A DNA stretch of 64,000 nt, taken from assembly GCA_025462865.1 (NCBI GenBank), contig JAOAPI010000150.1:124001-188000 (forward strand), given 5' to 3'. The stretch is from Candidatus Sulfotelmatobacter sp. (lineage in GTDB: Bacteria > Acidobacteriota > Terriglobia > Terriglobales > Acidobacteriaceae). The position numbers and the translations under genes were made by a program. Numbering within the stretch: position 1 is the first letter of the stretch; each line of letters starts with the position of its first letter. The notes beneath the pieces are model-generated. The model was not told where the DNA came from. It did not search any database and saw only the letters and a list, made by a program, of their open reading frames with translations. Below are positions 46,229-60,778 of this stretch, piece by piece.

Positions 46229-46918
46229 TTAAACTACCGCCGATTGGCGCAACTGGCTCAGGCGCGCGCCAAGAAAATTCAACTGCTCTTCCATCCCCTC
46301 GCCGGTCTTCGCCGAGAGTTTAAACACCTGCATGCCCGGGCGTACGGACTGAATGTTTTTGTACGCGGTCTCCCAGCTAAATTCCACCGCCGCCGCCAAA
46401 TCAATCTTCGTGACCACAGCAACGTCTGCACTATTGAAAATTGTCGGATATTTCAGTGGTTTGTCTTCGCCCTCAGTCACTGAAATAAGTACGATCCGAA
46501 GATCTTCGCCCAAATCATAGGACGAGGGACACACGAGGTTGCCAACGTTTTCGATGAAGAGAAAATCTAACCGGTTGATGTCCCATTCTTCCTCTTCCAG
46601 CGCGTTTTGGACCATGGCAGCTTCGAGATGGCAAAGAGTACCCGTTGTAATTTGCCTGACTGGCGCCTTACTGCGGGCCAGCCGGAGGGCATCGTTCTCC
46701 GTGGCAAGATCGCCCACTAATGCAGCCACGCGATAGTTTGAGCGAAGAAGAGTGAGAATCTTCTCGAGAAACGCAGTCTTCCCTGATCCGGGGCTCGAGA
46801 CCAGACTCACCACGAACACTCCAGCGGCACGAAAGCGGTCGCGAAGGGATCGGGCCACCACATCATTCTGCTTCAGCACATTCTTTCTAACTTCAATCAA
46901 ACGGGGTTCGGCATGCAT
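46229..46918 (-). CDS. hypB: Hydrogenase nickel-incorporation GTPase HypB
   Basis: A 229-residue SIMIBI GTPase that inserts nickel into the hydrogenase large subunit with HypA. Walker A is SSPGSGKTAFLEK, and the metal-site motif is TTGTLCHLEA. ENVGNLVCPSSYDLGE is typical. It lacks the N-terminal CxxCGC and the His-rich tail seen in some HypB proteins, so only the G-domain metal site remains. It overlaps hypA by 22 nt and is the last gene of the operon. Confidence 0.95.
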   Translation of the reverse strand: MHAEPRLIEVRKNVLKQNDVVARSLRDRFRAAGVFVVSLVSSPGSGKTAFLEKILTLLRSNYRVAALVGDLATENDALRLARSKAPVRQITTGTLCHLEAAMVQNALEEEEWDINRLDFLFIENVGNLVCPSSYDLGEDLRIVLISVTEGEDKPLKYPTIFNSADVAVVTKIDLAAAVEFSWETAYKNIQSVRPGMQVFKLSAKTGEGMEEQLNFLGARLSQLRQSAVV

Positions 46919-47259
46919 TCTTCAATCTCCAATGCAACTACTTCGAGTTCCTTACCATGCACGATCTCCGAAGTTGGAGTGCCGCACTCCGGACAGCAGA
47001 ACATCTGCATCGATGTAAGAGGGCGTTGCGCGCGACAATTCGGGCAAAAGATAACTATTGCAACATCTTTCACCACCAGCCGCGACCCTTGCAGCGGACT
47101 TCCCTCGCAAGCCATTTCATAACACGAGAGGAGAGCTTCTTTCACCACTCCGGACAGTACTCCCAACTTCAGATGCACGGCGTTAATCTGCACGCCGCGG
47201 CGCTCAGCTTCTTCCTCGGCCAGTTCCACAATACTCATCGCTATCGAAAGTTCGTGCAT
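46897..47259 (-). CDS. hypA: Hydrogenase nickel metallochaperone HypA
   Basis: A 120-residue protein starting MHELSIAMSIVELAEEEAER, where MHE is the nickel site, and with the structural zinc motif FCPNCRAQ and FCCPECGTP. It delivers nickel to the large subunit together with HypB. It starts seven nt after the hypF stop and overlaps hypB. Confidence 0.95.
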   Translation of the reverse strand: MHELSIAMSIVELAEEEAERRGVQINAVHLKLGVLSGVVKEALLSCYEMACEGSPLQGSRLVVKDVAIVIFCPNCRAQRPLTSMQMFCCPECGTPTSEIVHGKELEVVALEIEECMPNPV

Positions 47260-47266
47260 AGGATCT

Positions 47267-49561
47267 TCACTTTTTCTGATCGTGGTTCATTCCCGCAGGT
47301 ACGTCGAAGCGGCCAAAAGCCGCCAGCGCGGCCTGCCCCAGGCTGATGCCGCCATCGTTGGGCGGCACAGCATGGTTCGTCCACGCCTGCAGCGATTCCT
47401 GTGCCAGATGAGATTTCAAATCTTCCAGCAGCAATTCATTTTGGAAAACTCCTCCAGATAGAACAACCGTATCCAATGCGTAGCTTCCAGCGATGACATG
47501 CAGGGCATCGCATAAACCCTGAGCAATTCCGCGATGAAAGGCTCGAGCGATTTCCCGCACATTACGGCCACGAACCCGGTCCTGCGCAACGGCCAGAAGT
47601 AGCGGGCGAAAATCCAGTTCGTCGTCGACGAATGAAAATGGATACGGTTCCGTCAAAGGTGCGCCGCGCGCAAGTTGCTCCAACCAGATTGCAGCCTGCC
47701 CTTCGAAAGTGATCTCGCGAGTGAATCCGACCAACGCCGCTGCCGTATCGAAGAGGCGTCCCACGGACGTTGTGCCAAACGTTCGCACGTCTTTGGGTAC
47801 CAACTCCAAAGCATGGCAATAGCGCTCCGGAAAATCGAATGGGCTGGAAAGCACATCGGGTATGCCATCCACTTGTGCGAGGAACCCAGCTGCAGCCTGT
47901 ACTGGATTTTTTGCAGCGGCATCGCCGCCCGCCAAGACTGCCCTCCGAAGGTGGGCCACGCGCTCGAAGCCATCCTGCACGCTGCCCACAAAAATCTCCC
48001 CTCCCCAGATCGATCCATCATCGCCGTATCCCGTACCATCGAAACTCACGCCTATGACGCGCTTGGTCCATTCCCCTCGTTCTGCCAACACCGACGCGAC
48101 GTGAGCACGGTGGTGTTGCACCGCGTGGCTCTCCGGAACTCCGAGCGTCGCGGCGTGACATGTGGAAAGATATTGCGGGTGAAGGTCGCACACTAACAGC
48201 AATTCGTCCCACCGAACTTCGTACATGGAGACGAGATCCTCAATCGTTTCCTGGAATGCACGGAATGATTGGTAATGGTCCAGGTCGCCGATATGCTGGC
48301 TGACAAAAGCCTGACCATCCACAGCCAGCGTGATTGAATTTTTTAAGTCCGCGCCAAGCGCGAGGATGGGACGGACAGTAGGGAGCGATGCGACCGCGCC
48401 CGGAGCGTATCCACGAGCGCGGCGCAGGATGACAGGACCGCAGGCTCCGACTCGGGCCACCGAGTCGTCTACTCGCCGTGCGATTGGCCTCTGCCCAATC
48501 AGAAATGAGTCCGCGATTCCCGCGAGACGCTGCAATGCGTCATCGTCCTCATAAGCGATCGGCTCACTCGACCGATTCGCGCTGGTCATGACCAGGATTT
48601 CCGGAGCGCCGGCAGCGAATAGTAAATGGTGCAGAGGAGTGTAAGGCAGCATCACGCCGAGTTCGTTGTTCCCTGGAGCAACTTCAGGAAGGCCGATTCT
48701 TGCCGGGGCAAGCACGATGGGCCGGGCTGCAGAGGTGAGCAGCAACTGGGAGTCCGCTGATAACTCCACTAAAGTCCGCGCAACGGCGATATCCTTCGCC
48801 ATAAGAGCAAAGGGTTTTTCCTTCCGGTATTTGCGATCCCGCAAAGCCGCGACTGCAGCGGGATTCCGAGCATCGCACGCCAGATGGTATCCTCCGAGCC
48901 CTTTCACCGCGAGAATTCCGCCAGCACGAAGAACTTCCGCCGCACGGCGGATGCTTCCCCCACTTCCACCATCGTTTGAGTGAAGATGTGGATGCAGATA
49001 ATAATTTGGACCGCAAGCCGAACATGCCACAGGCTGAGCGTGAAAACGGCGATCGCCGGGATTTGTATATTCCGCGGTGCAGTGCTCATCGAGCGGCCAA
49101 TCCTTCATGGTGGTCTTAGGCCGGTCATAAGGCAGACCAAGCACCACGCTATAACGCGGCCCGCAATTCGTGCAGTTGATATAAGGATACAAATAGCGCC
49201 GATTGCTGGGATCGAACAGCTCTCTTAGACAGTCATTACAAACGGGAAGATCCGGCGAAATGCGAACCGTGGGCCGTTCCCCCTGCTGGCTGCTTCGGAT
49301 GGTGAATTCGTGCACGCCGACTGGCTCCGTCCGTCGCACATCAATTTCCGCGATGCTGGCTGCTGGTGGCGGCTGCGCTCTCAAGTCGCGAACAAAAGCT
49401 TCCAGTCCCGTCTCTGCGCCTTCAAGGTGAATCTCAATTCCCTCTTCCGCATTCAACACCCATCCACTCAAAGTGTTGGCGCAGGCCAGGCGATAAACAA
49501 AGGGACGAAATCCTACACCCTGCACGACTCCCCGAACTCGGATAGAACAAGCGCTGGCCAT
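47267..49561 (-). CDS. hypF: Carbamoyltransferase HypF
   Basis: A 764-residue protein that makes carbamoyl adenylate and loads it onto HypE for cyanide ligand synthesis. In order: acylphosphatase domain (RVRGVVQGVGFRPFVYRLA), two zinc-finger modules (CNDCLRELFDP with CTNCGPRYS, and CSACGPNYY), YrdC-like domain, and Kae1-like C-terminus with VQHHRAHVAS and SGGVFQNELL. Length is normal. The start follows the glutaredoxin-like gene by 34 nt. Confidence 0.95.
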   Translation of the reverse strand: MASACSIRVRGVVQGVGFRPFVYRLACANTLSGWVLNAEEGIEIHLEGAETGLEAFVRDLRAQPPPAASIAEIDVRRTEPVGVHEFTIRSSQQGERPTVRISPDLPVCNDCLRELFDPSNRRYLYPYINCTNCGPRYSVVLGLPYDRPKTTMKDWPLDEHCTAEYTNPGDRRFHAQPVACSACGPNYYLHPHLHSNDGGSGGSIRRAAEVLRAGGILAVKGLGGYHLACDARNPAAVAALRDRKYRKEKPFALMAKDIAVARTLVELSADSQLLLTSAARPIVLAPARIGLPEVAPGNNELGVMLPYTPLHHLLFAAGAPEILVMTSANRSSEPIAYEDDDALQRLAGIADSFLIGQRPIARRVDDSVARVGACGPVILRRARGYAPGAVASLPTVRPILALGADLKNSITLAVDGQAFVSQHIGDLDHYQSFRAFQETIEDLVSMYEVRWDELLLVCDLHPQYLSTCHAATLGVPESHAVQHHRAHVASVLAERGEWTKRVIGVSFDGTGYGDDGSIWGGEIFVGSVQDGFERVAHLRRAVLAGGDAAAKNPVQAAAGFLAQVDGIPDVLSSPFDFPERYCHALELVPKDVRTFGTTSVGRLFDTAAALVGFTREITFEGQAAIWLEQLARGAPLTEPYPFSFVDDELDFRPLLLAVAQDRVRGRNVREIARAFHRGIAQGLCDALHVIAGSYALDTVVLSGGVFQNELLLEDLKSHLAQESLQAWTNHAVPPNDGGISLGQAALAAFGRFDVPAGMNHDQKK

Positions 49562-49595
49562 TCTGTTGTTTTACTCGCCGAATTTATCGATCGCC

Positions 49596-49829
49596 TTATT
49601 CGTCTACCAGGCAACCGTGACCCTGCCAACCCACTTGAACCACCTTGCCGTCTTCGACCAGGATTGGCACGGTTCGCTGCCCGCCTGAAATCTTCCGCAT
49701 CCGTGCACGCGCTGCACGATCCGCTTCCACGTCATACTCAACAAATTCACTGCGCTTCCACTCCAGCCAGTCGCGCATTTCCTCGGTATGCGGGCAGCGG
49801 GCAGTTCCATAGAGTTCAAGCTTGGCCAC
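49596..49829 (-). CDS. Glutaredoxin-like protein of the hydrogenase operon
   Basis: A 77-residue thioredoxin-fold protein, MAKLELYGTARCPHTEEMRD onward, with a CPHT active site (single redox Cys plus Thr) and the TVPIL cis-Pro motif, and a C-terminal Cys in QGHGCLVDE. It resembles a family I recall as UXX-star (seleno)proteins, in which the first residue can be selenocysteine; here the codon is TGC. It overlaps the SIS gene by 14 nt, so it probably serves hydrogenase maturation or redox protection. Confidence 0.82.
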   Translation of the reverse strand: MAKLELYGTARCPHTEEMRDWLEWKRSEFVEYDVEADRAARARMRKISGGQRTVPILVEDGKVVQVGWQGHGCLVDE

Positions 49830-51000
49830 GGCTCAATACCTCCAACGATTCGCGAATCACGTGGTAGATCGACGCCTGCACTTCCTGTATGCGTGGGATG
49901 TAATCGCAATTCACTACCACGGGAAAGTCGGCCAGTCCCTTGCGTTTGATCTCCCCTCCGTCATAGCCGAGCAGAGCCACGGTCAGCAGATTGCGCTTGC
50001 GAGATTCTTCCAGCGCCATGATGATGTTCCGCGATCCACCGCTGGTGGAGATGCCGATTGCAATATCTTCCGGACGAGCCTGCGCGATCAACTGTCGGAG
50101 GAAAATTGCGTCGGTGCCGATGTCGTTGGCAACGGCCGTAATGTTGGCCGGTTCCAGGGAAAGTGAAACCGCAGGGACGGATTGGTAGCCGGGAGGCGGG
50201 AGCACGCAATCAATAGCAAAATCGTTGGCGTCTGTGGCCGAGCCACCATTGCCAAAAAGGATGAGCTTTCCGCCGAGACGCAGACGTTCATGGATCGCAA
50301 CCGCGCTGCTACTGATCTGCTCAGATTCTTCTCGTGCCAACTGCTCTCGCAGTTTTGTGTCATCGCGAACCTTCATCAGAATGGACGATGCCACCTCAGC
50401 AACTAACCCACTAGTTCCCTGCTTTTCGGTTCCCAAAAACGGGTAGAGAAATGCCGACTCCCCGACGTCATGGCCCAGTTCGCGGTGCTCGAAAAAAACG
50501 TGCACAGTCTCCCAAAGCGTGTGATAGAGGATCTCGATCATCTCCTGATGTAAGAAGGGATCTTGCGTGGCCGCGTCGACCGCATAAGAACCTTCAACAC
50601 CGGGCAGAGCGAATGTCATCGCGTCTTGACGGTGCGCCTCCTGAAGCGTAGCCCAAACTTCGGGATCGCCTTCGGGGGGACCAAATCCCATAACGATGTC
50701 TTCGGGACGCAGAATCGCTTCGATCCAAGGTCGAAACAGAACCGAGAGATCCAGCGCGGGCAGCGCGCGCTTGCCCACGATAACTGGATGAACGAACTCC
50801 ACAGAGACGTGTTGCGCGTCGGTGGCATAGGGTCCGCGCCCAAACGCCAGCAGGCGGCCTCCGCGGAGAAATCGTTCTGACATCTCTCGGCAAGCTTCCG
50901 CCAGACGAGGCGCCTCGCGCGAGAAGAATCGTTCGAAAAGCTGATTGCGCTCAAGCAAACGCTCTTCGATCTGACTCGCAAGTTTATATGTGGTTGCCAT
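49816..51000 (-). CDS. Double-SIS domain protein in hydrogenase operon
   Basis: A 394-residue protein with two SIS domains. The C-terminal one is canonical (GGKLILFGNGGSATDAND, later GISTSGGSRNIIMALEESRK) and like GmhA phosphoheptose isomerase. The N-terminal one is degenerate (LLAFGRGPYATDAQHVSVEF) and lacks the GNGGSA loop. SIS domains bind phospho-sugars; none is expected for hydrogenase work, so the tight placement between hypE and the glutaredoxin gene (5 and 14 nt) is unexplained. Similar genes occur, from memory, in other group 1h loci. Confidence 0.82.
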   Translation of the reverse strand: MATTYKLASQIEERLLERNQLFERFFSREAPRLAEACREMSERFLRGGRLLAFGRGPYATDAQHVSVEFVHPVIVGKRALPALDLSVLFRPWIEAILRPEDIVMGFGPPEGDPEVWATLQEAHRQDAMTFALPGVEGSYAVDAATQDPFLHQEMIEILYHTLWETVHVFFEHRELGHDVGESAFLYPFLGTEKQGTSGLVAEVASSILMKVRDDTKLREQLAREESEQISSSAVAIHERLRLGGKLILFGNGGSATDANDFAIDCVLPPPGYQSVPAVSLSLEPANITAVANDIGTDAIFLRQLIAQARPEDIAIGISTSGGSRNIIMALEESRKRNLLTVALLGYDGGEIKRKGLADFPVVVNCDYIPRIQEVQASIYHVIRESLEVLSRGQA

Positions 51001-51004
51001 GTGG

Positions 51005-52045
51005 TCAACAAATTCGCGGCAATGGATCGCCGACCAGCATATCGACGATCCGGCTACCCCCGTAAAGGGTTGTCACCAACACCGTTCCCGCCGGTTGTTC
51101 GCGTACCTCGCCAATGACCTGAGCTTCGCTTCCGCCCGGTGCCAGACTCAATGCATTGATCGCCGCGTCTGCGTACTCCGGAGATACAACCGCGAGAAAC
51201 TGTCCTTCGTTCGCAATATGCAGCGGGTCGAGTCCGAGCAATTCACACGCGCCGCGCACAGTATCGCGCACCGGAATCTGATCTTCGAAGAGAACCATGC
51301 CTAGTCCGCAATCGCGCGCTAATTCATTTAGGGATGTAGCAACACCGCCGCGTGTTGGATCGCGCATCCAGCGGATGCCCGGTCCGGCATCGTGAATGAG
51401 GGCTTCCACAAGAGAAAGCACAGAGCGCGTGTCAGAACGAAGATCGGCTTCGAGATCCAACTCACCGCGTGCCAGCAAGATAGTGATGCCGTGATCGCCA
51501 ATGGGTCCGGAGAGCAGAATCCTGTCGCCCACCCGCACCGAGCGAGGATCGACGATCACTCCAGGAAGCAGGCGGCCAATGCCAGTCGTAGTCACATACA
51601 TCTGATCTGCCTTGCCGTGCTCAACGACTTTTGTGTCTCCAGAAGCAATGCGAACTCCAGCGTCCCGGGCGGCTTTCGCCATAGCTCGGACTTCGGCTTC
51701 AAGAACTGACGTAGGCAGTCCGGCTTCAAGCACATAACTGACCACGAGAGCTTCTGCCCGAGCACCTGAAACTGCGAGGTCGTTCACGGTGCCGTTCACC
51801 GCGAGTTCACCAATCGACCCGCCGGGGAAACTTATTGGCTTAACCACAAAACTATCGGTCGTAATCGCAACGGTGGTGCCATTGATGTCGACATGCGCGG
51901 CATCACCGAGTGGGCCGGGAGCGGCGCCAAAAAGAAGAGGAGCGAAGAGTCCTTCGACCAACTTGCGGCTGGCTTTTCCTCCGGCCCCGTGCGCCATCTC
52001 GATCTGAGGATCGCGGAAGCGGGTAGGGGCGGATTCGGCAATCAC
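51005..52045 (-). CDS. hypE: Hydrogenase maturation protein HypE
   Basis: A 346-residue PurM-like ATPase that converts a carbamoyl group on its C-terminal cysteine to thiocyanate, the CN source. The protein ends GDPLPRIC with the essential last Cys. MAHGAGGKASRKLVEGLF is the N-terminal signature. I chose the GTG at 52043-52045, 14 nt after the hypD stop, which gives a normal length; the frame is open for another 44 codons inside hypD. Confidence 0.94.
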   Translation of the reverse strand: MIAESAPTRFRDPQIEMAHGAGGKASRKLVEGLFAPLLFGAAPGPLGDAAHVDINGTTVAITTDSFVVKPISFPGGSIGELAVNGTVNDLAVSGARAEALVVSYVLEAGLPTSVLEAEVRAMAKAARDAGVRIASGDTKVVEHGKADQMYVTTTGIGRLLPGVIVDPRSVRVGDRILLSGPIGDHGITILLARGELDLEADLRSDTRSVLSLVEALIHDAGPGIRWMRDPTRGGVATSLNELARDCGLGMVLFEDQIPVRDTVRGACELLGLDPLHIANEGQFLAVVSPEYADAAINALSLAPGGSEAQVIGEVREQPAGTVLVTTLYGGSRIVDMLVGDPLPRIC

Positions 52046-52059
52046 GGACGCCGTCGAAC

Positions 52060-53187
52060 TCAGGCGATCGAACTCAGACTTACCATTGCTGCCTTGCGAT
52101 GTTCGTAGTTGTGATAGGCGGCGCATGATCCTTCCGATGAGACCATGAGTGCGCCGATAGGATGCTCCGGTGTGCACTCGCGGCCAAAAAGTTTACACTG
52201 ATGGGGCTTCAGCACGCCCTTCAACACTTCTCCACACTGCGCGGCTTTGGGATCTGTTACGCGAATGCCTGGGACTTCAAAGCGCTGTTCTGCATCCCAC
52301 TCGGCGTACTTGTCGTTAACGCGCAATGCAGACTGCGAGATGAACCCCAAACCGCGCCATTCAAAGTAAGGACGCAGCTCAAAAACTTCCGCCATGGCCC
52401 GAAGCGCGGCGCGGTTGCCTTCCCAGGGCACAACCCGCTTGTACTGATTTTCAACTTTGGCCTCGCCCGCCTTCAATTGTCGTAAAAGCATGACGATCGA
52501 TTGCAGCATGTCCAATGGCTCGAAGCCTGAGACCACGATGGGTTTGCGTTCGTTACGCGCAATCCACTCGTAAGGTCGGCAGCCGATGACAGTCGAGACG
52601 TGGCCCGGACCAATGAAGGCGTCGAGACGCATATCAGGAGAGTCCAAAATAGCCCTGATCGCGGGAATGATGGTGACGTGATTGCAGAACACGGAGAAAT
52701 TGCGAATGCCTTCCACCTTAGCGCGCATCATCGTAAGCGCTGTGGAAGGAGCGGTGGTCTCAAATCCGATGGCAAAGAACATGACGTGCTTGTCGGGATT
52801 GAGCCGGGCCAGCTTCAGCGCATCGGAAGGCGAATACACAATGCGAACATCCATGCCGCGCGCTTTATGCTCAAGCGGGCTGCCTTGAGTTCCGGGTACG
52901 CGCATCATATCGCCGAAGGCGGCGAAGATAACATCGGGCTCGTGCGCGATGGCTAGACCATCGTCGATTCTTCCCATGGGAAGCACGCAGACCGGGCAGC
53001 CGGGGCCGTGAATCAATTCGATGTTCTCAGGAAGGATATCTTTTAGTCCAAAGCGATAAATGGCGTGAGTATGTCCCCCACAGACTTCCATCGTGCGGTA
53101 GTGACGGTCGGTTCCGGCGAGGCGGCGAATTTCTTCCGCTGTCTTCGAAATCAGTTCGGGTTCGCGGAACTCATCAACGAATCTCAT
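52060..53187 (-). CDS. hypD: Hydrogenase maturation protein HypD
   Basis: A 375-residue iron-sulfur protein that, with HypC, assembles the Fe(CN)2CO unit. Conserved motifs are EVCGGHTHAIYRFG, HGPGCPVCVLP, GFETTAPSTA and the C-terminal cluster ligands including CGEVLKGVLKPHQCKLFG. It begins 33 nt after hypC. All hallmark cysteines are present. Confidence 0.95.
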   Translation of the reverse strand: MRFVDEFREPELISKTAEEIRRLAGTDRHYRTMEVCGGHTHAIYRFGLKDILPENIELIHGPGCPVCVLPMGRIDDGLAIAHEPDVIFAAFGDMMRVPGTQGSPLEHKARGMDVRIVYSPSDALKLARLNPDKHVMFFAIGFETTAPSTALTMMRAKVEGIRNFSVFCNHVTIIPAIRAILDSPDMRLDAFIGPGHVSTVIGCRPYEWIARNERKPIVVSGFEPLDMLQSIVMLLRQLKAGEAKVENQYKRVVPWEGNRAALRAMAEVFELRPYFEWRGLGFISQSALRVNDKYAEWDAEQRFEVPGIRVTDPKAAQCGEVLKGVLKPHQCKLFGRECTPEHPIGALMVSSEGSCAAYHNYEHRKAAMVSLSSIA

Positions 53188-53220
53188 GCGAATCCCTTTT
53201 GTTCGGACTTGAGTTGAACG

Positions 53221-53499
53221 TCAATTGACGTCCTCCAACCCATATCCCTGAATTTCCTGCATCGCGCCGTCGATTTCTCCCAGCATACGGAGCGTACTCA
53301 TCTGGTCGGCGGCGTCCTGCTCGCTGATCTTGCTCATAGCAAAGCCGACATGGATAAGCACCCAGTCGCCCGGCACGGGCTTGTCATCCTGTAGCAGACC
53401 CAAATCAATCTTGCGCCGCACGCCGACCACGTCCACGAGCGCCGAATCCTGGTTGTCGGAAGAGATCTCAACGATCTTCCCCGGTATGGCTAGACACAT
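53221..53499 (-). CDS. hypC: Hydrogenase assembly chaperone HypC
   Basis: A 92-residue chaperone starting MCLAIPGKIVEI, with the essential Cys2 that binds the Fe cofactor and the large-subunit precursor. GGAGG precedes the ATG. GDWVLIHVGFAMSKISEQDA is the usual OB-fold segment. The protein passes the cofactor from HypD to the large subunit. Confidence 0.95.
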   Translation of the reverse strand: MCLAIPGKIVEISSDNQDSALVDVVGVRRKIDLGLLQDDKPVPGDWVLIHVGFAMSKISEQDAADQMSTLRMLGEIDGAMQEIQGYGLEDVN

Positions 53500-53571
53500 G
53501 CGGCATCCTCCCGCGACATCATGATTCGCTTCATCCCGATCCATCTTTGTAAGTCTCGTGCCGCCCGCAGG

Positions 53572-54423
53572 TCACTCCTGCTCGCGAGCGGACATATCAA
53601 ACCCATCACCGTTGAGAATTCTGTTGATGATCGATTCCACCAATTTAACGGCGTGATCCACGGCAGCTTCGATTGGTGCGCTCAGCCCCATCTGGCCTTC
53701 TTCGCCTCCAAGGGTTTCCGGCTCGCAGCCCACCAGCAGCACATTCTTGACCTCAATATTCATCGCCCGGGCCATGCGCAACACGCTCACAGGATTCATC
53801 GCATGGGCTTCAATTACGGCCGGCGGATCGTCCGGACCATCCAGCGCTTTCAAATCGGGTTCGATTACGTACAACGTCCCCGGAACATCGCCACGCGGAC
53901 AAGCGTCGACCAGAATTGTGGTCTCGTAGCCATCCTGTAGAGCATAGGCCAGGTCAAAACCGCGAATGCCAAAATCAACCACACGCACGCTTTGTGACAA
54001 CCCACGGCTGGCGAGACGGCGAACCACTTCCACCCCGAACCCATCATCCCCGAGGAAGATGTTGCCGATGCCGGCAACGAGGATGGTTGGTTTCTTCGCA
54101 GTAGCGGTTTGCGGAAATTCATCGGGAGACAGCGGCTCAACTTCTTCCGCATCGAAGAAGAAGCGATGACCCGGCTGACGCAGCAGTCCCATATCCCTGC
54201 CGGGATCGTTATCCAGCACAACGCAGACGTGCTGCTTGCCCTCGTAATCCTGCTCGATGCATTCGATGGTGGCGATTTGTCCGGCGAGCGCGATGTCCAT
54301 TACATCGCCGTGCGGACGCGGCCGCAGGCGCACCCGGCTTCCCGTCCTCACCTCGACTCCCGCAATTTCGAGATGATCGATCGGAGTTTTCTCCTCGAGA
54401 AGTTGCCATTCCCACTCGTTCAT
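53572..54423 (-). CDS. Hydrogenase maturation protease with extra N-terminal domain
   Basis: A 283-residue fusion. The C-terminal 165 residues are a HycI/HyaD-type endopeptidase: VAGIGNIFLGDDGFGVEV with the nickel-sensing acidic residue, LVDACPRGD, and HAMNPVSVLRMA. It removes the C-terminal peptide of the large subunit after nickel insertion. The first 110 residues form a beta-rich domain (VRLRPRPHGDVMDIALAGQI, CVVLDNDPGRDMGL) with no counterpart in classical proteases. The start overlaps the upstream gene as ATGA. Confidence 0.9.
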   Translation of the reverse strand: MNEWEWQLLEEKTPIDHLEIAGVEVRTGSRVRLRPRPHGDVMDIALAGQIATIECIEQDYEGKQHVCVVLDNDPGRDMGLLRQPGHRFFFDAEEVEPLSPDEFPQTATAKKPTILVAGIGNIFLGDDGFGVEVVRRLASRGLSQSVRVVDFGIRGFDLAYALQDGYETTILVDACPRGDVPGTLYVIEPDLKALDGPDDPPAVIEAHAMNPVSVLRMARAMNIEVKNVLLVGCEPETLGGEEGQMGLSAPIEAAVDHAVKLVESIINRILNGDGFDMSAREQE

Positions 54424-55481
54424 TGCCTGTCCTCCTTGAGTGGGCGCAGACTTCGCATGACTCCGTGCAACTTCATAAAATGTTCCATCGGCATGGTTTC
54501 GGTGCGTTTCAGCATCTGGCGGGCGCGCTCATCCGACTGGCTCATCTCGAGCTTCTCATCGTCGGTCAGCGTCATGATGCGCAAGGAGAGAATCTCATCA
54601 ATCTCGGTGCCGTCAAATAAATCTCCAGCGCTCTCCGGTGCAATCTGCGGATAGTCATAGAGAATGATCGGGGCAGAGAGCATCGTGTCACGCTGTCCTT
54701 CTTCCCCGACCAGCACTGGCCACGTTCCCACATTTTTGCAACGAGCCGCCTCTTCACGAAGATGCTCATGAGGCGCGATCTGCGAAACAAATCTTCCATC
54801 CTGCACGCCGATAACGGTATGAGTGGAGGCCATAGAACTCAGCAAGGCCTGGTCCCGGCTGGAATCCTCTGCGAGTTCGAACGGAGTGGTGTTGCGGACC
54901 AGCACGCTCACCTTAAACACTCCATCCTCAATCCGTTCCGCCATCACTTCGAGAGCGCCGCGGATCGCTTTTCGCTCGCGCACGATGATGCCGGCAAGTT
55001 CTCCATTTCCGGATTGCAGATGTTCAATTTGTTTTTCGTCAGCGAAACTAAAAGATTCGTGGATTTGCGCATGACTCAGCGCCTCCACGTTGTACACCGG
55101 CAAAACCAGTTCTCGCTCGATTGCTTCCTGCCAAGGCCGATATACGCGACCATTCGCTTCCAGTCTCTCAACCAGCCGAAACTCCGGCACTTCGCCCGGC
55201 AACTCACTCACCGGCGTGGTCAACTCGCCGACAGAACGTGCGACCAACTGCAGAAAACGCACTCGAACTTCGATCCCGGTTAGCGAACTACCTTCCACCA
55301 GGCATTCAGTCAACATGATCGAGGCCTCGCCACCGTTCTGCGCTTCGCAGTACGATTGCGGGCACAGCACACCAAAGTTCCAGCGCTGCTGATTCTTCAC
55401 CGAAGATGGGCGATACGGATAGAGCATGTATCCCTCATACAGCACCGCTTTCGCGATCTTCTCCACCGCCTGGAGGTTCAC
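54420..55481 (-). CDS. Hydrogenase-locus protein of unknown function, 353 residues
   Basis: A soluble, acidic protein without clear motifs. It starts with a helical segment (LQAVEKIAKAVLYEGYMLYP), continues with YRPSSVKNQQRWNFGVLCPQ and a mixed alpha/beta middle, and ends with a helical acidic tail. The GTG start overlaps the preceding stop by one base (TAGTG) with AGAAGG seven bases ahead, and its own stop overlaps the protease start (ATGA). This tight coupling to both a DUF6084-like gene and the protease argues for a hydrogenase assembly role. I do not recognise any enzymatic signature. Confidence 0.85.
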   Translation of the reverse strand: MNLQAVEKIAKAVLYEGYMLYPYRPSSVKNQQRWNFGVLCPQSYCEAQNGGEASIMLTECLVEGSSLTGIEVRVRFLQLVARSVGELTTPVSELPGEVPEFRLVERLEANGRVYRPWQEAIERELVLPVYNVEALSHAQIHESFSFADEKQIEHLQSGNGELAGIIVRERKAIRGALEVMAERIEDGVFKVSVLVRNTTPFELAEDSSRDQALLSSMASTHTVIGVQDGRFVSQIAPHEHLREEAARCKNVGTWPVLVGEEGQRDTMLSAPIILYDYPQIAPESAGDLFDGTEIDEILSLRIMTLTDDEKLEMSQSDERARQMLKRTETMPMEHFMKLHGVMRSLRPLKEDRQ

Positions 55482-56125
55482 TACATCACCTTCTCTTCCA
55501 CGGGAATAATGCTCTCTAAAACTTCTTCCCAAGTGGGAATCCCGCGCTGCATTTTGTATTGGTACAAGCGGTCGAAGGCGTCTTTGTGTAGGCACAGCCA
55601 GGCGCTGTTGGGGTAATAGGCCTGCATCATGTCGCGCCAGACTCTCACAGGCAGTCTGAATCGAGTTTCCTTGTCCCAGGAAATGGGAGCGACCTGAAGT
55701 CCGCCTTCCGCGCCAGCATAAAAAACAGTTCCACTGAACTGCAGGCAGATTGGGACTTCTCCATCAGCCACTCCATCAAAGTATTTGGTAGCCGCAACAT
55801 TGAAATCGAAGCTGCACGGCACGGGCAGATCAACCAGCGTCGATCCTTTAAACGAAGGCACGACCAGATTGGCGTGGGTCCACAAAAGATTTCGCAGAGT
55901 CTGGCCCCAGCGGCTGGGCTCGCCAAACAAATCGAGCAGGCGCTCCTGATCTTCGGGCGTATATTTTCGCCGCGTGACTTCGAGCTGGATCTGACATCGC
56001 AGCGCGACCGTGTGAATGGTTTGCTCGGGATTAATGTCCGTCAAACGAAGTTTGAACGCCAGTAGTGGAGAGGCTGCATTCGCTACCACTTCGGCGCCTT
56101 CGACCTGAAAGCTCAGATCAGGCAT
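55481..56125 (-). CDS. DUF6084-like hydrogenase-locus protein
   Basis: A 214-residue beta-rich protein, MPDLSFQVEGAEVVANAASP onward, with a central IQLEVTRRKYTPEDQERLLD and RWGQTLRNLLWTHANLVVPS. It resembles DUF6084 proteins as I recall them from group 1h loci in Actinobacteria. No Cys cluster or catalytic motif is visible. The ATG overlaps the preceding stop by 8 nt and is preceded by GAGGAG; the stop overlaps the next gene by 1 nt. Function unknown, probably maturation or assembly. Confidence 0.82.
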   Translation of the reverse strand: MPDLSFQVEGAEVVANAASPLLAFKLRLTDINPEQTIHTVALRCQIQLEVTRRKYTPEDQERLLDLFGEPSRWGQTLRNLLWTHANLVVPSFKGSTLVDLPVPCSFDFNVAATKYFDGVADGEVPICLQFSGTVFYAGAEGGLQVAPISWDKETRFRLPVRVWRDMMQAYYPNSAWLCLHKDAFDRLYQYKMQRGIPTWEEVLESIIPVEEKVM

Positions 56126-56804
56126 GAGACTCCTCTCCCATATTCGAAGCCTCTTTAGTTTCAACCGCGACCTCGACCGATCGTGCTTTCACGCGTGTGA
56201 AGAACTCCCCCAGCTCCTTCCAAACTTCCGTGCCACCGGATAGACCTTTCCAGTGCAGGCGAATCAGGCCCACCAGTTTGTAACATTCATCAATCGGAAG
56301 CAGATAGTATTCGGCCGCAGAATATCCGCGGGAATAACCGAGTCGATTTACCAGCAACCCTTCCACATCGGATTCCATTTCGTTCAGAATCGGATTACGC
56401 GCCACAATGTCATTCCAGGATTCCAGCGCGAGCAGAGACTCAGTGGCTCCCGCCGGACTGGGATAAAGAGCAATGACGCGATTCTCCAGACTGTTTCTGA
56501 AGAAGAAAGCCATGTTGATGGGAACCATCAGGCCATTCCACTCGGCATCGCTGAGATTGAAAGCGGGAAGAGAGAGCACCCGCCTCGGCACGCGCTTGAA
56601 TTTCACACCCTGCCCGCTGAACAGAATCGCACAAGCGTCACAGGTGCAAAGCAGTTTTCGCTGCGCCAGCTCAATCAAATGGGGATGATCGGGCCGTAGG
56701 CCCACGCTGCACATCTCGCAGCGTTCGAGCGGCCGCTCGCGCCGCGCAAACTGTCGCAACGCTCCAAAGCCATCAGCCGATCCCGTAAATTGCCCCGCGC
56801 TCAT
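56118..56804 (-). CDS. DUF5947-like Cys-rich hydrogenase-locus protein
   Basis: A 228-residue protein with an N-terminal metal-binding motif: RCEMCSVGLRPDHPHL followed by LLCTCDACAILF, giving cysteines 29, 32, 53, 55 and 58 and histidines 40 and 42. A C-terminal globular part (VPINMAFFFRNSLENRVIAL and YYLLPIDECYKLVGLIRLHW) follows. The pattern matches DUF5947 as I recall it. The Cys arrangement would suit zinc or an Fe-S cluster, so it could be a metallochaperone or electron-transfer adaptor for the hydrogenase. It starts 24 nt after the NifU-like gene. Confidence 0.83.
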   Translation of the reverse strand: MSAGQFTGSADGFGALRQFARRERPLERCEMCSVGLRPDHPHLIELAQRKLLCTCDACAILFSGQGVKFKRVPRRVLSLPAFNLSDAEWNGLMVPINMAFFFRNSLENRVIALYPSPAGATESLLALESWNDIVARNPILNEMESDVEGLLVNRLGYSRGYSAAEYYLLPIDECYKLVGLIRLHWKGLSGGTEVWKELGEFFTRVKARSVEVAVETKEASNMGEESHA

Positions 56805-56828
56805 GATTTCAGAATCTTCCTGCGTCTC

Positions 56829-57416
56829 TTAATCTCCGCCGTTGGGTTCCAGAGCGACGGGCTGCTGCATGATTGCCACCCCGCTCATTAACTTATCTAA
56901 AGCTACAAATCCGGAAGCGCTCTTCTCTTCCAGACCCTCAATCACCAGAGAAGTCAGATCGGGCGCGGCGTCGTACATTGCCCCCTCGAGAGTCGCATGC
57001 ACGGTTTTTGCTGTTGAGCCGCAGGCATGCGAACCAGTTTCAACTCGCAGGCGGATTTCACCCTCGTTCACGCCGAGCAGTTCGAGTTCGCAACCCTGTT
57101 TCCGCAACTGCGGCCTCACCTTTTCTACTGCCTTTACCACTCGTGCCTCAACGTCCTCAGGGTGCAGGCCGTACAGAATCAGAACGCTGCTCACCAGCGG
57201 ATCACGGCCCAACCGGTCAATGATGTTCATTCCCGGGTCTCCGGCTTCGGCCACAATGTCGAGCGCTTTCTCCAGCGCCGCGCCGTGCAAATCCATGAGC
57301 GATTGCACCAGGCCCTTGGTGGCCGCTCTTACCGAGGGATCGGCGATCGATTCCATCTCCTGGACCAGCCCGCCGATCCGTTGCATGTCCTCTCGAAAAT
57401 CTCTCCCGTCAGCCAC
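56829..57416 (-). CDS. NifU-like scaffold protein lacking the CxxC pair
   Basis: A 195-residue protein. The C-terminal NifU domain (LELLGVNEGEIRLRVETGSH, then ACGSTAKTVHATLEGAMYDA) has one Cys where normal scaffolds have CxxC, so it cannot ligate a cluster alone in the usual way. The N-terminal half is helical (GGLVQEMESIADPSVRAATK). The GTG start is preceded by AGGAG. It is the first accessory gene after the large subunit and is probably part of Fe-S delivery to the small subunit, or a structural subunit. Confidence 0.85.
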   Translation of the reverse strand: MADGRDFREDMQRIGGLVQEMESIADPSVRAATKGLVQSLMDLHGAALEKALDIVAEAGDPGMNIIDRLGRDPLVSSVLILYGLHPEDVEARVVKAVEKVRPQLRKQGCELELLGVNEGEIRLRVETGSHACGSTAKTVHATLEGAMYDAAPDLTSLVIEGLEEKSASGFVALDKLMSGVAIMQQPVALEPNGGD

Positions 57417-57587
57417 AGGGCTCCTTAATAAATGATGAATTAATGTGACACGCAATAAAACCCAATCGTAGAGACGTTGCTTGCAACGTCTCTGCCAACA
57501 GCACCTCAAACTACGCTTTCATCGATGCTGCCTGTAGAACCTTAGCCAGCTGCGTCTCTACGATCATCAAGCTCGCTTAGCGACGAG
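57417..57587. other. Intercistronic stretch with strong hairpin
   Basis: The 171-base gap between hhyL and the NifU-like gene is the largest inside the operon. It contains an 11-bp perfect stem, AGAGACGTTGC-TT-GCAACGTCTCT (57470-57493), of the dispersed-repeat type, and a second small inverted repeat AGCTCG...CGAGCT near 57571-57590. It could set different levels of the structural and accessory mRNAs by processing or partial termination. Confidence 0.55.
57470..57493. repeat. Palindromic GTAGAGACGTTGC-type repeat
   Basis: Perfect 11-bp inverted repeat with a 2-nt loop. Related sequences are scattered in acidobacterial and cyanobacterial genomes, from memory. It sits between the large-subunit and NifU-like genes. 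Confidence 0.7.
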
Positions 57588-59384
57588 CTACGGTTGAAGA
57601 CCAAACATTGGGGAATGGTGCGTCTTCAACACTTTTCCGTTCCCCAAATACATGTGAACCCCACAAGGTAGGCACGGATCGAAGCTTCTCACCGCCCGCA
57701 TGATGTCTATCCCCTTAAATTTGTCCGGGCCGTTCTCTTCGAAGATCGGCGTATTCTGCACTGCATCCTCATAAGGCCCCGGAGTTCCGTAAATGTCCCG
57801 AGGATTAGCATTCCAGGGCGTCGGCGGATACGGGTGGTAGTTCGCGATTTTGCCTTTGCGGATTACCACATGGTGCGACAGCACTCCGCGAACTGCTTCG
57901 TGGAAGCCGCAGCCAATGGCTTCCTCAGGCACTTTGAAATCAGTCCACGTTCTGGTCCTGCCGGCATGGAGTTCAGCCAGCGCCTGCTCGGCAAAATAAA
58001 GCGCCGCAGCCGCCGAGTAAGCCTGGAAATAAGTGCGAGCCCGGTCGCGTTCAATGGCATTGCTCCACTTCGGAATCTTCCACTCGAACTCCACTTCTGG
58101 TTTGGAAGCAGTCTTGGGCAGATAAATCTTCACGCTCTGGCCCGTGGACTTGATGTAGCCAATGTCCACGAGTCCAGCGAGCGCCGTCGCCCACAAGCGG
58201 GCAATCGGACCACCGCCAGTATCCAGCGCAAGGTGATCGCCCGTTCGCTTGTCGAACCATCGAGGCGACATGACCCACGTGTACTTTCCATCAAAGTCGC
58301 GCTTTTGCGGACGAGGAATCGTGGTCTGGTTCCAGGGATGATTCTTATCCACTGGATTGCCCAGTGGATCAGTCTTAACGAACGTCTCAGAGTTTTTCCA
58401 ATCGTCGTAGTACGAACTGCCTAACAGAATCCGGATGTTCAGGTTGATGTCAACCAAATCTGTGGTTACGAGTTTTCCGTCCACGACAACGCCCGGGGTT
58501 ACGTACATCGCTCGACCCCATTCGGTCATGTGTTCGTATTTGTAATCGCAAACGTCGGGATTTTGGAATGATCCCCAGCAACCCAGCAGTATTCTTCTAC
58601 GCCCCACCTCTTCGTATCCCGGCAGCGCGTCATAGAAGAAGTCGAACAAATCATCGTGCAGCGGCAGGACCTTCTTCATGAACTCCACATATTTGATCAG
58701 CCGCACGATGTAATCAGTGAAAAGTTGAATCGTCGGCACAGTTCCTACTCCGCCCGGATACAGCGTCGAGGGATGCACGTGGCGTCCTTCCATCAGGCAA
58801 AACATCTCGCGGGTCATGCGGCTCATCTGCAGAGCCTCAAGATAGAAGGCTCCCGTAAAGGGATTGAGCGCCGTCATGATATCTGCGATGGTTCGATAGC
58901 CGTGCTGGTTGGAGTGTGGCGCCGCCGTGGACTGCGCCTTGGTCCAGACCTTTGGATTCGTCTCTTTGACCATCTGCTCGCAAAAATCCACGCCGACCAA
59001 ATTATCCTGAAAGATATTGTGATCGAACATGTATTCGGCGGCTTCGCCTAGATTCACAATGCACTCCGCAATATTCGGAGGTCGAACTCCGAACGCCATG
59101 TTTTGTGCGTAGGTGGCACAGGTCGCGTGATTGTCGCCGCAGATCCCGCAGATGCGGCTGGTGATGAAATGAGCATCGCGCGGATCCTTGCCTTTCATGA
59201 AAATGCTGTACCCGCGAAAAATGGACGAGGTGCTGTGACACTCGACCACATGGCGGTTCTCAAAATCGATTTTGGTGAAAATACCCAGGCTGCCCACGAT
59301 CCGAGTGATCGGGTCCCAATTCATTTCCACGAGATTTCTTTTTTTGCTGGGGACGTCCTTAGTCGGTGCGGTAATAGTGCTCAT
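57588..59384 (-). CDS. hhyL: [NiFe]-hydrogenase large subunit, group 1h/5 type
   Basis: A 598-residue catalytic subunit. The N-terminal nickel motif is SRICGICGDNHATCATYA and the C-terminal motif is SFDPCLPCGVHMYLG; both Cys pairs that bind Ni-Fe are intact. Twenty-one residues follow the final His and would be cut off by the maturation protease. Motif contexts match the high-affinity, oxygen-tolerant actinobacterial/acidobacterial group, in which the enzyme oxidises atmospheric H2. The ATG starts 22 nt after the small subunit stop. Confidence 0.95.
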   Translation of the reverse strand: MSTITAPTKDVPSKKRNLVEMNWDPITRIVGSLGIFTKIDFENRHVVECHSTSSIFRGYSIFMKGKDPRDAHFITSRICGICGDNHATCATYAQNMAFGVRPPNIAECIVNLGEAAEYMFDHNIFQDNLVGVDFCEQMVKETNPKVWTKAQSTAAPHSNQHGYRTIADIMTALNPFTGAFYLEALQMSRMTREMFCLMEGRHVHPSTLYPGGVGTVPTIQLFTDYIVRLIKYVEFMKKVLPLHDDLFDFFYDALPGYEEVGRRRILLGCWGSFQNPDVCDYKYEHMTEWGRAMYVTPGVVVDGKLVTTDLVDINLNIRILLGSSYYDDWKNSETFVKTDPLGNPVDKNHPWNQTTIPRPQKRDFDGKYTWVMSPRWFDKRTGDHLALDTGGGPIARLWATALAGLVDIGYIKSTGQSVKIYLPKTASKPEVEFEWKIPKWSNAIERDRARTYFQAYSAAAALYFAEQALAELHAGRTRTWTDFKVPEEAIGCGFHEAVRGVLSHHVVIRKGKIANYHPYPPTPWNANPRDIYGTPGPYEDAVQNTPIFEENGPDKFKGIDIMRAVRSFDPCLPCGVHMYLGNGKVLKTHHSPMFGLQP

Positions 59385-59406
59385 TCGAGTCGCTCCTTAT
59401 GCCGTG

Positions 59407-60471
59407 TCAGTAAGATCGTGGATGGTATCCGGTGGTCAGTTCAGCGCGAGGGTGACGCCATTTGGGTTCTTTGTTGACAGTATGTTGAGTGATTGAGCGC
59501 AGGGCACGAATCGCACGGCCATAAGCGCCGACGGCGGCGCTGGAGACTTTTCCACCGGGTGGCTCATCCATAAAAGGCATGAACTTGTCGGGGAAGCCGG
59601 GCATCGTGCAGCCGATGCAAATACCGCCCACATTCGGACAGCCTCCGATTCCCGCCATCCATCCCCGTTTGGGAACGTTGCAGTTCACCACCGGCCCCCA
59701 GCATCCCAATTTCACAATGCACTTTGGTGATCCGTACACTTCGGCGAAATCGCCCTGCTCGTAGTAACCAGCTCGATCGCAGCCTTCGTGCACCGTTTTG
59801 CCGAACAGCCATGTGGGACGCAGCTGATCGTCCAGCGGAATCATGGGCGCAAGTCCAGCCACCTGATAAAGCAGGTAAAGCAGCGTCTCCATGAAGTTGT
59901 CGGGCTGAACCGGACACCCGGGAACATTCACGATCGGTAGACCGGCTTTCGACTTCCAGTCCCACCCCAGGTAATCCGCGAGTCCCATGCAGCCCGTCGG
60001 ATTGCCTTCCATGGCGTGAATCCCGCCATAGGTCGCGCACGTACCGCAGGCTACGACCGCCAATGCTTTGGGAACAAGGCGATCAATCCATTCGTTGGTG
60101 GTGATGGGCTGTTTCGTATTGGGGTTGGTACCAAGCCCTGCCCAATAGCCTTCCTTCTTAATCTTTTCGTTGGGAATCGATCCTTCCACCACCAGGACAA
60201 ACGGTTCGAGTTTCCCTTCTTCCGCCTGGTACCAATACTTCATGAAGTCGTCGCCAACTTCATATGCGAGCACAGGATTGTGCAAGTGAACCTTGGGGAG
60301 TCCGGGAATCGCTCCTAACAGAACATCCTCGATGCTGGGTTGAGTTGCTGCCGTGATGGAAACCGAATCTCCGTCACAGCCCAAACCTGCGGTGATCCAG
60401 AGAATATGAACTTCGGCGACGGGGGATGGTCTTTGCGTGACTCGACCGTACGGAACCGCTTGCGCTGCCAT
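59407..60471 (-). CDS. hhyS: [NiFe]-hydrogenase small subunit, group 1h/5 type
   Basis: A 354-residue Fe-S subunit. The proximal cluster site reads GLGCDGDSVS: C32 followed by Asp35 where most hydrogenases have the second Cys, then ACGTCATYGG and NVPGCPVQPDNF. Distal and medial cluster ligands lie in VHEGCDRAGYY, KCIVKLGCWG, GGCPNVGG and CIGCTMPGFPD. No Tat signal is present, unlike most membrane-bound uptake hydrogenases. The ATG at 60469-60471 follows AAGGAGAACCCC; an upstream ATG lacks this. The 3Cys-1Asp proximal cluster is known from the Ralstonia eutropha group 5 enzyme. Confidence 0.95.
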   Translation of the reverse strand: MAAQAVPYGRVTQRPSPVAEVHILWITAGLGCDGDSVSITAATQPSIEDVLLGAIPGLPKVHLHNPVLAYEVGDDFMKYWYQAEEGKLEPFVLVVEGSIPNEKIKKEGYWAGLGTNPNTKQPITTNEWIDRLVPKALAVVACGTCATYGGIHAMEGNPTGCMGLADYLGWDWKSKAGLPIVNVPGCPVQPDNFMETLLYLLYQVAGLAPMIPLDDQLRPTWLFGKTVHEGCDRAGYYEQGDFAEVYGSPKCIVKLGCWGPVVNCNVPKRGWMAGIGGCPNVGGICIGCTMPGFPDKFMPFMDEPPGGKVSSAAVGAYGRAIRALRSITQHTVNKEPKWRHPRAELTTGYHPRSY

Positions 60472-60778
60472 GGGGTTCTCCTTTCCCATAGAAAACTTAA
60501 TTAGGAGTGGGAGCCGACGGTTCCTTCATGCGTGAAAAGGAATCGCAAATTGTGGAACTAAACATCCGAAAGAGTGACCTCGCGTCTCGCTCAAGACGGG
60601 TGCACGGGGTTAAGGATCAACGTTACGGGGGCGGCTCACAAGCGGGAGCACCACTTTTTCCAACGGAGGAAAATCCTAGGGATTTCGTCGGGGATTTCCC
60701 TAGGGTGCGTTCCTTAGGTTAATTGCCCTAACAAGCAAACTGACCCATCGGTTGCAGGACGCCGAGCAAGCGAGGAGC
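60472..60778 (-). promoter_or_regulatory. Hydrogenase promoter region
   Basis: About 300 bases between the response-regulator stop and hhyS. It contains the CCTAGGGA/TCCCTAGG inverted repeat listed separately, located about 230 bases before hhyS. No open frame of interest. A -35/-10 or -24/-12 assignment would be guesswork, so none is called. Confidence 0.6.
60675..60718. promoter_or_regulatory. CCTAGGGA inverted repeat, candidate operator
   Basis: CCTAGGGA (60675-60682) and TCCCTAGG (60697-60704) are perfectly complementary with a 14-nt spacer. A third half-site-like TCCTTAGG lies at 60711-60718. Spacing of about two helical turns between half-sites (22 nt centre to centre) fits binding of a dimeric LuxR/NarL-type regulator; the gene for such a regulator ends 61 nt away. 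Confidence 0.6.

Follow-up and report, generated by a model that had tools for sequence, protein, structure and literature searches.

An acidobacterial group 1h [NiFe]-hydrogenase locus with a conserved accessory module and an NX domain fused to its maturation protease

Introduction

The group 1h [NiFe]-hydrogenases are tied to the soil sink of atmospheric H2, and two questions about them concern the exit of electrons from the enzyme and its assembly in air. Here we analyze a group 1h (Hhy) hydrogenase locus in a 64,000-nucleotide stretch of Candidatus Sulfotelmatobacter sp. (contig JAOAPI010000150.1, positions 124,001 to 188,000), referred to as the window, and compare it with the closest described systems, those of C. 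necator and M. smegmatis. In C. necator the hofKG genes have been described together with hyp genes, hupD and four open reading frames (ORFs), PHG066-069, of unknown function (PMC4377017). In M. smegmatis (MSMEG_2722-2718, HhyE, MSMEG_2717) a NifU-like HhyE is encoded downstream of the large subunit, as in the window; deletion of hhyE abolishes Hhy activity and phenocopies deletion of hhyL, and HhyE is required even with an artificial acceptor (PMC6883350). The same work, in the parts drawn on here, refers to a proposal that PHG067 accepts the electrons (Schaefer 2013), reports that 9.5% of the species surveyed are without HucE and HhyE, and states from 26 full-length HhyE sequences that a CxxC motif is present, with truncated forms also noted. 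In methanotrophs, four coding sequences of unknown function lie beside the group 1h genes (PMC12319191), and the part consulted of a survey of [NiFe]-hydrogenase neighbors does not name the module (PMC12727194). Passages of PMC8027828, PMC11540253 and PMC12458937 brought nothing decisive.

The module is therefore already in print, as PHG066-070 of C. necator and HhyE of M. smegmatis. A first-pass annotation of the window had taken its biochemistry to be undescribed, a view that does not stand given PHG066-069, the HhyE deletion and the acceptor proposal for PHG067 (PMC4377017; PMC6883350). Gene order identifies PHG067 as the DUF5947 protein and PHG069 as a member of the 353-residue protein family discussed below. 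In the literature that we searched, which was mostly open-access, DUF5947 and DUF6084 are named jointly in a single paper, which judged by its title deals with antibiotic biosynthesis, and in the parts seen we found no description of a maturation protease fused to the NX domain defined below.

Results

A complete group 1h locus

The cluster is one minus-strand run (46229-60489) and apparently a single operon leading from HhyS (60489) to HypB (46229). Its genes are, in order:

59407..60489, minus strand: HhyS, hydrogenase small subunit (PF14720, PF01058); the second ATG gives 60471
57588..59384, minus strand: HhyL, hydrogenase large subunit (PF00374)
56829..57386, minus strand: HhyE-type NifU-like protein, short form (PF01106, E-value 1.3e-7); the ORF spans 56829-57509 and the ATG at 57386 is our choice of start
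56118..56804, minus strand: DUF5947 protein (PF19372, E-value 5.8e-68)
55481..56125, minus strand: DUF6084 protein (PF19562, E-value 8.4e-88)
54420..55481, minus strand: 353-residue protein, GTG start, with no significant match in Pfam and NCBIfam searches
53572..54423, minus strand: HycI-type maturation protease with N-terminal NX domain (PF01750; TIGR00072, 112.4 bits)
53221..53544, minus strand: HypC (TIGR00074)
52060..53187, minus strand: HypD (TIGR00075)
51005..52045, minus strand: HypE (TIGR02124 from ORF residue 58); the GTG start is our choice, and the ORF extends to 52177
49816..51000, minus strand: double-SIS protein, 394 residues (PF13580 on the C half)
49596..49829, minus strand: Uxx-star glutaredoxin-like protein, Cys form (CPHT; NCBIfam NF041212)
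47267..49561, minus strand: HypF (TIGR00143)
46897..47259, minus strand: HypA (PF01155)
46229..46918, minus strand: HypB (TIGR00073)

The structural genes, the six hyp genes and the accessory genes that the first-pass annotation had placed on one strand are all present there. Their close packing was likewise borne out, as with the chosen starts the 14 junctions are overlaps or gaps of at most 34 bases, the exception being the 201 bases between the large-subunit and NifU-like genes. The NifU-like domain sits directly after the large subunit, the position by which HhyE is recognized. The same gene order is found again in other phyla, a recurrence that we judge to be far beyond chance.

We confirmed the locus as a complete group 1h locus of an acidobacterium with the standard gene set, as the earlier assignment had it. 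HhyL shares 84.7% identity with HofG of C. necator, which is also its best match in the PDB (5aa5, chain 5aa5_C), and carries the L1 motif TSRICGICGDNH and the L2 motif SFDPCLPCGVH; both motifs are named for group 1h in the part of PMC5364354 used here. For comparison we assembled 84 named loci by taking the 80 best among 546 confirmed matches and adding four loci from the 12 plasmid records matched. With a slightly relaxed L2 pattern, L1 and L2 occur together in 84 of 85 loci, and L033 has a variant L1. The 5aa5 chain stops at the position aligned to window residue 577, the last His of L2, which is consistent with the removal of a predicted C-terminal propeptide after His577.

The small subunit contains the motif GLGCDGDS and, with three Cys and one Asp, would be expected to hold a 3Cys1Asp proximal cluster. 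This Cys/Asp pattern is present in 79/85 loci and absent from the best small-subunit frame of L014, L036, L044, L046, L059 and L066. Reading the HhyS sequence by eye, we saw neither a twin-arginine signal nor a C-terminal membrane helix. A high affinity for atmospheric H2 would be expected from membership in the group, of which O2 tolerance is a further trait. The genome has one clear [NiFe]-hydrogenase, the sole other PF00374 match scoring 26.9 bits.

The locus of the actinobacterial hydrogenase (AH) in Cupriavidus necator H16 (HofKG, PHG064/065 plus PHG066-070, 5aa5) has the same order of small subunit, large subunit, NifU, DUF5947, DUF6084, 353-residue homologue and protease. It differs from the window in that NX is fused to the 353-residue homologue instead of the protease, the NifU site has no Cys where the window has one, a single SIS gene lies between hypC and hypD in place of the double-SIS gene, and the examined stretch yielded no gene of the glutaredoxin-like kind.

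Elsewhere, in the one-contig genome G275 (contig 1, 569576-571347), the large-subunit gene lies in two overlapping frames, through a frameshift or an assembly error. The acidobacterial locus L041 has two divergent pairs of small and large subunits, and no module gene was seen beside the second pair in the examined stretch. Relatives with 39-40% identity occur in G333 (C14) and G349 (C2), the latter genome also carrying a true group 1h enzyme.

Conservation of the accessory module

We dropped 14 loci with less than 6 kb downstream of the large-subunit gene, leaving 70 informative ones. The small subunit was found in all 70, the 353-residue protein in 67, the NifU-like protein and the protease in 66 each, DUF5947 in 65 and DUF6084 in 64, and the exact order from small subunit to protease described above is kept in 52. 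The protease was not counted in L052, L053, L062 and L083, although in L062 it is present as a fusion to the 353-residue protein. The HypABCDEF proteins build and insert the NiFe(CN)2CO site; HypC was counted in 62 loci, HypA and HypD in 53 each, HypF in 51, HypE in 47 and HypB in 42. SIS genes were found in 44 loci, histidine kinases and response regulators in 24 each (anywhere in the examined stretch) and the glutaredoxin-like gene in 8.

The NifU-like protein, DUF5947, DUF6084, the 353-residue protein and the protease are the usual companion set of group 1h. The earlier proposal of a dedicated module was put to this neighborhood comparison as a refutation test and came through it, with the core genes in 64-67 of the 70 loci. 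That proposal had treated six families as one module, and here it needs trimming: the NifU-like, DUF5947, DUF6084 and 353-residue families belong to the core, and we rejected the SIS and glutaredoxin families as core parts on their counts (44/70 and 8/70).

Whole genomes give a similar picture. DUF5947 was found in 14 of 297 Acidobacteriota genomes, the same 14 that have a large subunit at least 79% identical, and in none of the 283 remaining sampled genomes (Fisher p about 3e-24). A 15th genome has only a 40% large-subunit match and is without DUF5947. DUF6084 is present in 13 of the 14 genomes with a close large subunit (G254 being without it), and fragments of it occur in G111, a genome without a listed large-subunit match.

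NX domain and its fusions to the protease and the 353-residue protein

At its N-terminus, within the first ~105 residues, the window protease contains a domain of ~85 residues that we name NX and that the first-pass annotation had not mentioned. A HycI/HybD-type protease match (TIGR00072) is common to the window protein and known maturation proteases, and the NX extension is what sets the window protein apart. Of the 85 loci, 44 carry NX at the C-terminal end of the 353-residue protein, 20 encode it on its own and 11, the window among them, have it joined to the protease. In L062 the 353-residue protein, NX and the protease are joined in a single open frame of 669 residues. Neither NX nor the 353-residue protein was found in the examined stretch of 9/85 loci, several of which are short contigs. 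Independent evidence for the split form of NX and the 353-residue protein comes from the phylum to which G360 (source of L050, a Ktedonosporobacter) belongs. There 16 of 141 genomes match, and in most of these two neighboring frames fit successive stretches of the model.

Parsimony on a quick large-subunit tree gives 10 changes of NX architecture, an approximate count. The protease fusions fall in two clades with well-supported forks between them, one in Terriglobia and the other formed by Microtetraspora and a relative. Because NX has repeatedly been fused to both partners, the 353-residue protein, NX and the protease appear to act together, which suggests that the 353-residue part serves maturation at the protease step rather than electron transfer. 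The first-pass annotation had left assembly and electron transfer side by side for the module; for this part the fusions favor the former.

Metal-ligand residues in HhyE and DUF5947

In the window NifU-like protein the cluster motif is reduced to S119-x-x-C122 (numbered by alignment row), one Cys of the CxxC being lost, a point that the first-pass annotation had passed over. We scored 80 of the 81 NifU-like proteins, leaving out L013, which is cut by a contig end. The CxxC is intact in 41/80, has one Cys in 20/80 (including L005, for which the alignment column is doubtful) and has none in 19/80, C. necator PHG066 being among the Cys-less proteins. On the same quick tree, parsimony requires 10 switches between an intact and a broken motif, again an approximate count. 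The C-terminal CxxC pair, a pattern present in 26/81 proteins, is not found in the window HhyE. The HhyE proteins of the set that come from mycobacteria other than M. smegmatis have both an intact CxxC and the C-terminal pair, whereas the window protein has neither. We rejected HhyE as a universal iron-sulfur carrier, the CxxC being incomplete in 39/80 proteins.

DUF5947 presents the opposite behavior, with six Cys and two His (C29, C32, H40, H42, C53, C55, C58 and C174) identical in 75/75 aligned proteins. We infer a division of these ligands in which C29, C32, C55 and C58 would form one site and H40, H42, C53 and C174 possibly a second. In its AlphaFold2 (AF2) model (predicted local distance difference test, pLDDT, 88.8), residues 24-66 weakly resemble a zinc-finger or treble-clef fold (best Z 4.2 over 45 residues), and Foldseek gave no match with E-value <= 0.001. 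Profiles searched against PDB sequences reached a best E-value of 0.55 for DUF5947 and 0.37 for DUF6084, and found nothing up to E-value 1 for the 353-residue family.

Resemblance of the 353-residue protein to DrmA

The predicted fold of the 353-residue protein (AF2 model, pLDDT 84.3) resembles the N-terminal chassis of DrmA, the helicase of the DISARM system. Foldseek matched the model to the DrmA entries 7s9w and 7s9v with an E-value of 1e-5, the TM-score being only 0.33 of the query. In the VIA comparison, model residues 16-275 aligned with residues 148-424 of the chassis at Z 11.2 (197 residues, root-mean-square deviation 4.3), the best entry other than DrmA reaching Z 4.8, and these values should be read knowing that models without a clear match often score Z 7-8 against a larger set. 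The PADLOC DrmA profile PDLC02573 matches the window protein with an E-value of 1.5e-7 (27.8 bits), limited to positions 153-331 of 1018, and is listed for 33/46 family members at an E-value limit of 10 (best 1.9e-12). DrmA differs in having tandem RecA helicase domains and a defense setting; the 353-residue protein lacks both and is encoded in a hydrogenase operon.

Other comparisons gave little further likeness. We compared the family with ten DrmA-type plasmid helicases (four annotated as drmA); the family hidden Markov model scored at best -0.9 bits against them, and hhalign gave a probability of at most 6.4% over 27 columns. Eight of the ten were compared with PADLOC, and seven were listed for PDLC02573 with their best stretch in the helicase part only (positions of at least 342), so none of them resembles the clade with an N-terminus like the 353-residue protein. 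No helicase match was found in loci L099-L147. Pfam and NCBIfam gave nothing convincing for the family (best listed, Phage_TAC_7 in 7/46 members at 1.3e-4), the viral structure library gave no match to the model with E-value <= 0.001, and no DrmA match was seen among the DUF6084 (0/49) and DUF5947 (0/46) families. No full member of the PDLC02573 clade was found in 199 Acidobacteriota genomes or in 299 and 256 genomes from the phyla of G355 and G356, where scoring covered two or three candidates in most genomes, at E-value limits of 1e-4, 1e-15 and 1e-6. Six listed matches to profile positions 80-344 are all genes of the 353-residue family in genomes with a close large subunit.

The evidence for a DrmA link thus consists of one predicted fold and one profile. 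As a property of the predicted model the likeness to the chassis is well supported, and common descent of the two is plausible. Among the papers listed by a literature search on such a link, none mentions both DrmA and hydrogenase.

Discussion

Proposed roles of the module

The locus itself is an ordinary member of its group; what would be new are DUF5947 as a metal partner, the 353-residue protein and NX at a protease step, and a fold like that of an anti-phage helicase. The 353-residue protein and NX may form a dedicated platform that presents the large-subunit precursor to the HycI-type protease, as the domain fusions suggest. The protease would cut the C-terminal peptide after His577, a site supported by comparison, and the small subunit would then dock. 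DUF5947 would be the main metal-binding partner, either as an electron relay or as a factor that completes the 3Cys1Asp cluster of the small subunit, and HhyE could keep a structural or docking role for which roughly half of the proteins would not need a cluster of their own. The helpers would include DUF6084, the SIS protein and the Uxx-star glutaredoxin, the last of them lineage-specific. Taken as a whole, a group 1h locus with a 353-residue/NX protease platform, DUF5947 as metal partner and a structural HhyE seems to us slightly on the probable side.

Several observations weigh against this combination. The sampling of loci favors close relatives, and 26/82 inner forks of the quick tree are weak, which makes the change counts approximate. 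Fusions demonstrate functional linkage and no mechanism. That HhyE is needed even when the acceptor is artificial is compatible with assembly no less than with electron transfer, to judge from the parts consulted of PMC6883350, and the mycobacterial HhyE proteins of the set retain their CxxC. DUF5947 is missing from 5/70 loci (L044, L053, L061, L067 and L073); L061 is cut off some 1.7 kb to the left of the large-subunit gene, and the remaining four belong, with L082, to one supported clade of five rows, in which L082 has DUF5947 and is without DUF6084. Since parts of the module are lost in this clade, the module is not strictly obligatory.

As a separate observation on the same clade, L044, L053 and L073 are without NifU, DUF5947 and DUF6084, and the records of the clade are from a planctomycete, Chloroflexota and Polyangiaceae.

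HhyE, DUF5947, DUF6084 and the 353-residue protein could instead stay with the enzyme as permanent, stoichiometric subunits, passing electrons on from the small subunit to quinone in the membrane and anchoring the soluble enzyme there, much as HucM serves quinone electron delivery and tethering in the group 2a enzyme. The position of the genes among the structural ones of the operon, immediately behind the small and large subunits, is what such a complex would lead one to expect, as are the eight invariant Cys and His of DUF5947 and a YceI-family gene in 11 loci, a gene that is, on the other hand, absent from the window cluster. The M. smegmatis operons are further described as lacking a cytochrome b-type subunit, and HhyL, HhyS and HhyE are cited as co-localizing on native gels (PMC6883350, in the parts used). 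An electron-transfer complex does not explain, however, why NX has repeatedly been fused to protease and 353-residue protein alike, or why half of the HhyE proteins have lost ligands, and we consider it possible but somewhat unlikely.

A bolder form of the platform reading would have one ancestral scaffold give rise both to anti-phage helicases and to H2-hydrogenase maturation, as a gating platform with a mobile NX, with DUF5947 and not HhyE as the general metal partner; this we regard as speculative and unlikely. That HhyE is the universal immediate electron acceptor through an iron-sulfur cluster, the other proteins being minor, would account for the M. smegmatis deletion that phenocopies loss of hhyL (PMC6883350, as far as drawn on here). 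Cluster Cys residues are, however, partly or wholly missing in 39/80 proteins, the window protein and C. necator PHG066 included, with the 10 changes of state noted above, and so general a role for HhyE is improbable; for lineages with intact cysteines the acceptor model could still hold. Finally, that the accessory genes are chance neighbors or general iron-sulfur or sugar-metabolism genes would suit the broad and patchy SIS and glutaredoxin families (44/70 and 8/70) but is very improbable overall, and for the core genes it is refuted by their counts of co-occurrence with the hydrogenase across phyla and by the failure to find DUF5947 in any of the 283 acidobacterial genomes of the sample that have no close large subunit.

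The survey makes testable the roles of the DUF5947 Cys and His residues, the need for the HhyE cluster, and the action of the 353-residue protein and NX at the protease step, and it yields a candidate minimal gene list for heterologous expression.

SIS, glutaredoxin and YceI genes

A Pfam match to SIS covers just the C half of the double-SIS protein, the N half being recognized by its similarity to the SIS genes of other clusters. In L040, L043, L047, L049 and L050, whose genera we take to be Chloroflexota, two SIS genes stand in tandem, and the two halves have their highest scores against the first and the second gene of this tandem, respectively; the protein therefore looks like a fusion of such a pair. 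The glutaredoxin-like protein scores 70.9 bits against NF041212 (cut-off 66), placing it as a Cys member of the Uxx-star family. The 8/70 loci with this gene are all acidobacterial by record titles, with Thermoanaerobaculum, which is among them, presumably acidobacterial.

In 11 loci, of which ten are acidobacterial and one is from Gemmataceae (L038), a YceI-type gene comes after the protease gene, in most cases immediately ahead of hypC or hypA; none was found in the window cluster. The clustering of neighboring genes that brought up this family listed many antisense or shadow frames, and the YceI family is the one result used from it. Examples are L009 (14460-15104), L010 (16256-16894) and L015 (15792-16391), and in L011 the gene is in two frames. 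Pfam PF04264 confirmed the assignment for L010 and L015, the others being assigned by phmmer. We take the YceI family to bind polyisoprenoids, and a quinone link for these genes is possible.

Neighboring genes

Directly upstream of the cluster (60779-63135) lie two genes that were absent from the first-pass annotation:

60779..61507, minus strand: LuxR-type response regulator (PF00072, PF00196), candidate cluster regulator
61465..63135, minus strand: PAS histidine kinase (PF08447, PF07730, PF02518), candidate regulator

The pair is a candidate for control by H2 or starvation. It was seen in the same position in L009-L013, L015-L017, L022, L026 and L029 and not in L030 and L045. A trehalose synthase-type gene (TIGR02456, 44346-45986) adjoins the cluster at its downstream end and is likewise on the minus strand. 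On a Mycobacterium intracellulare plasmid (L006, 20919-29785) a run of nuo (complex I) genes follows the group 1h genes.

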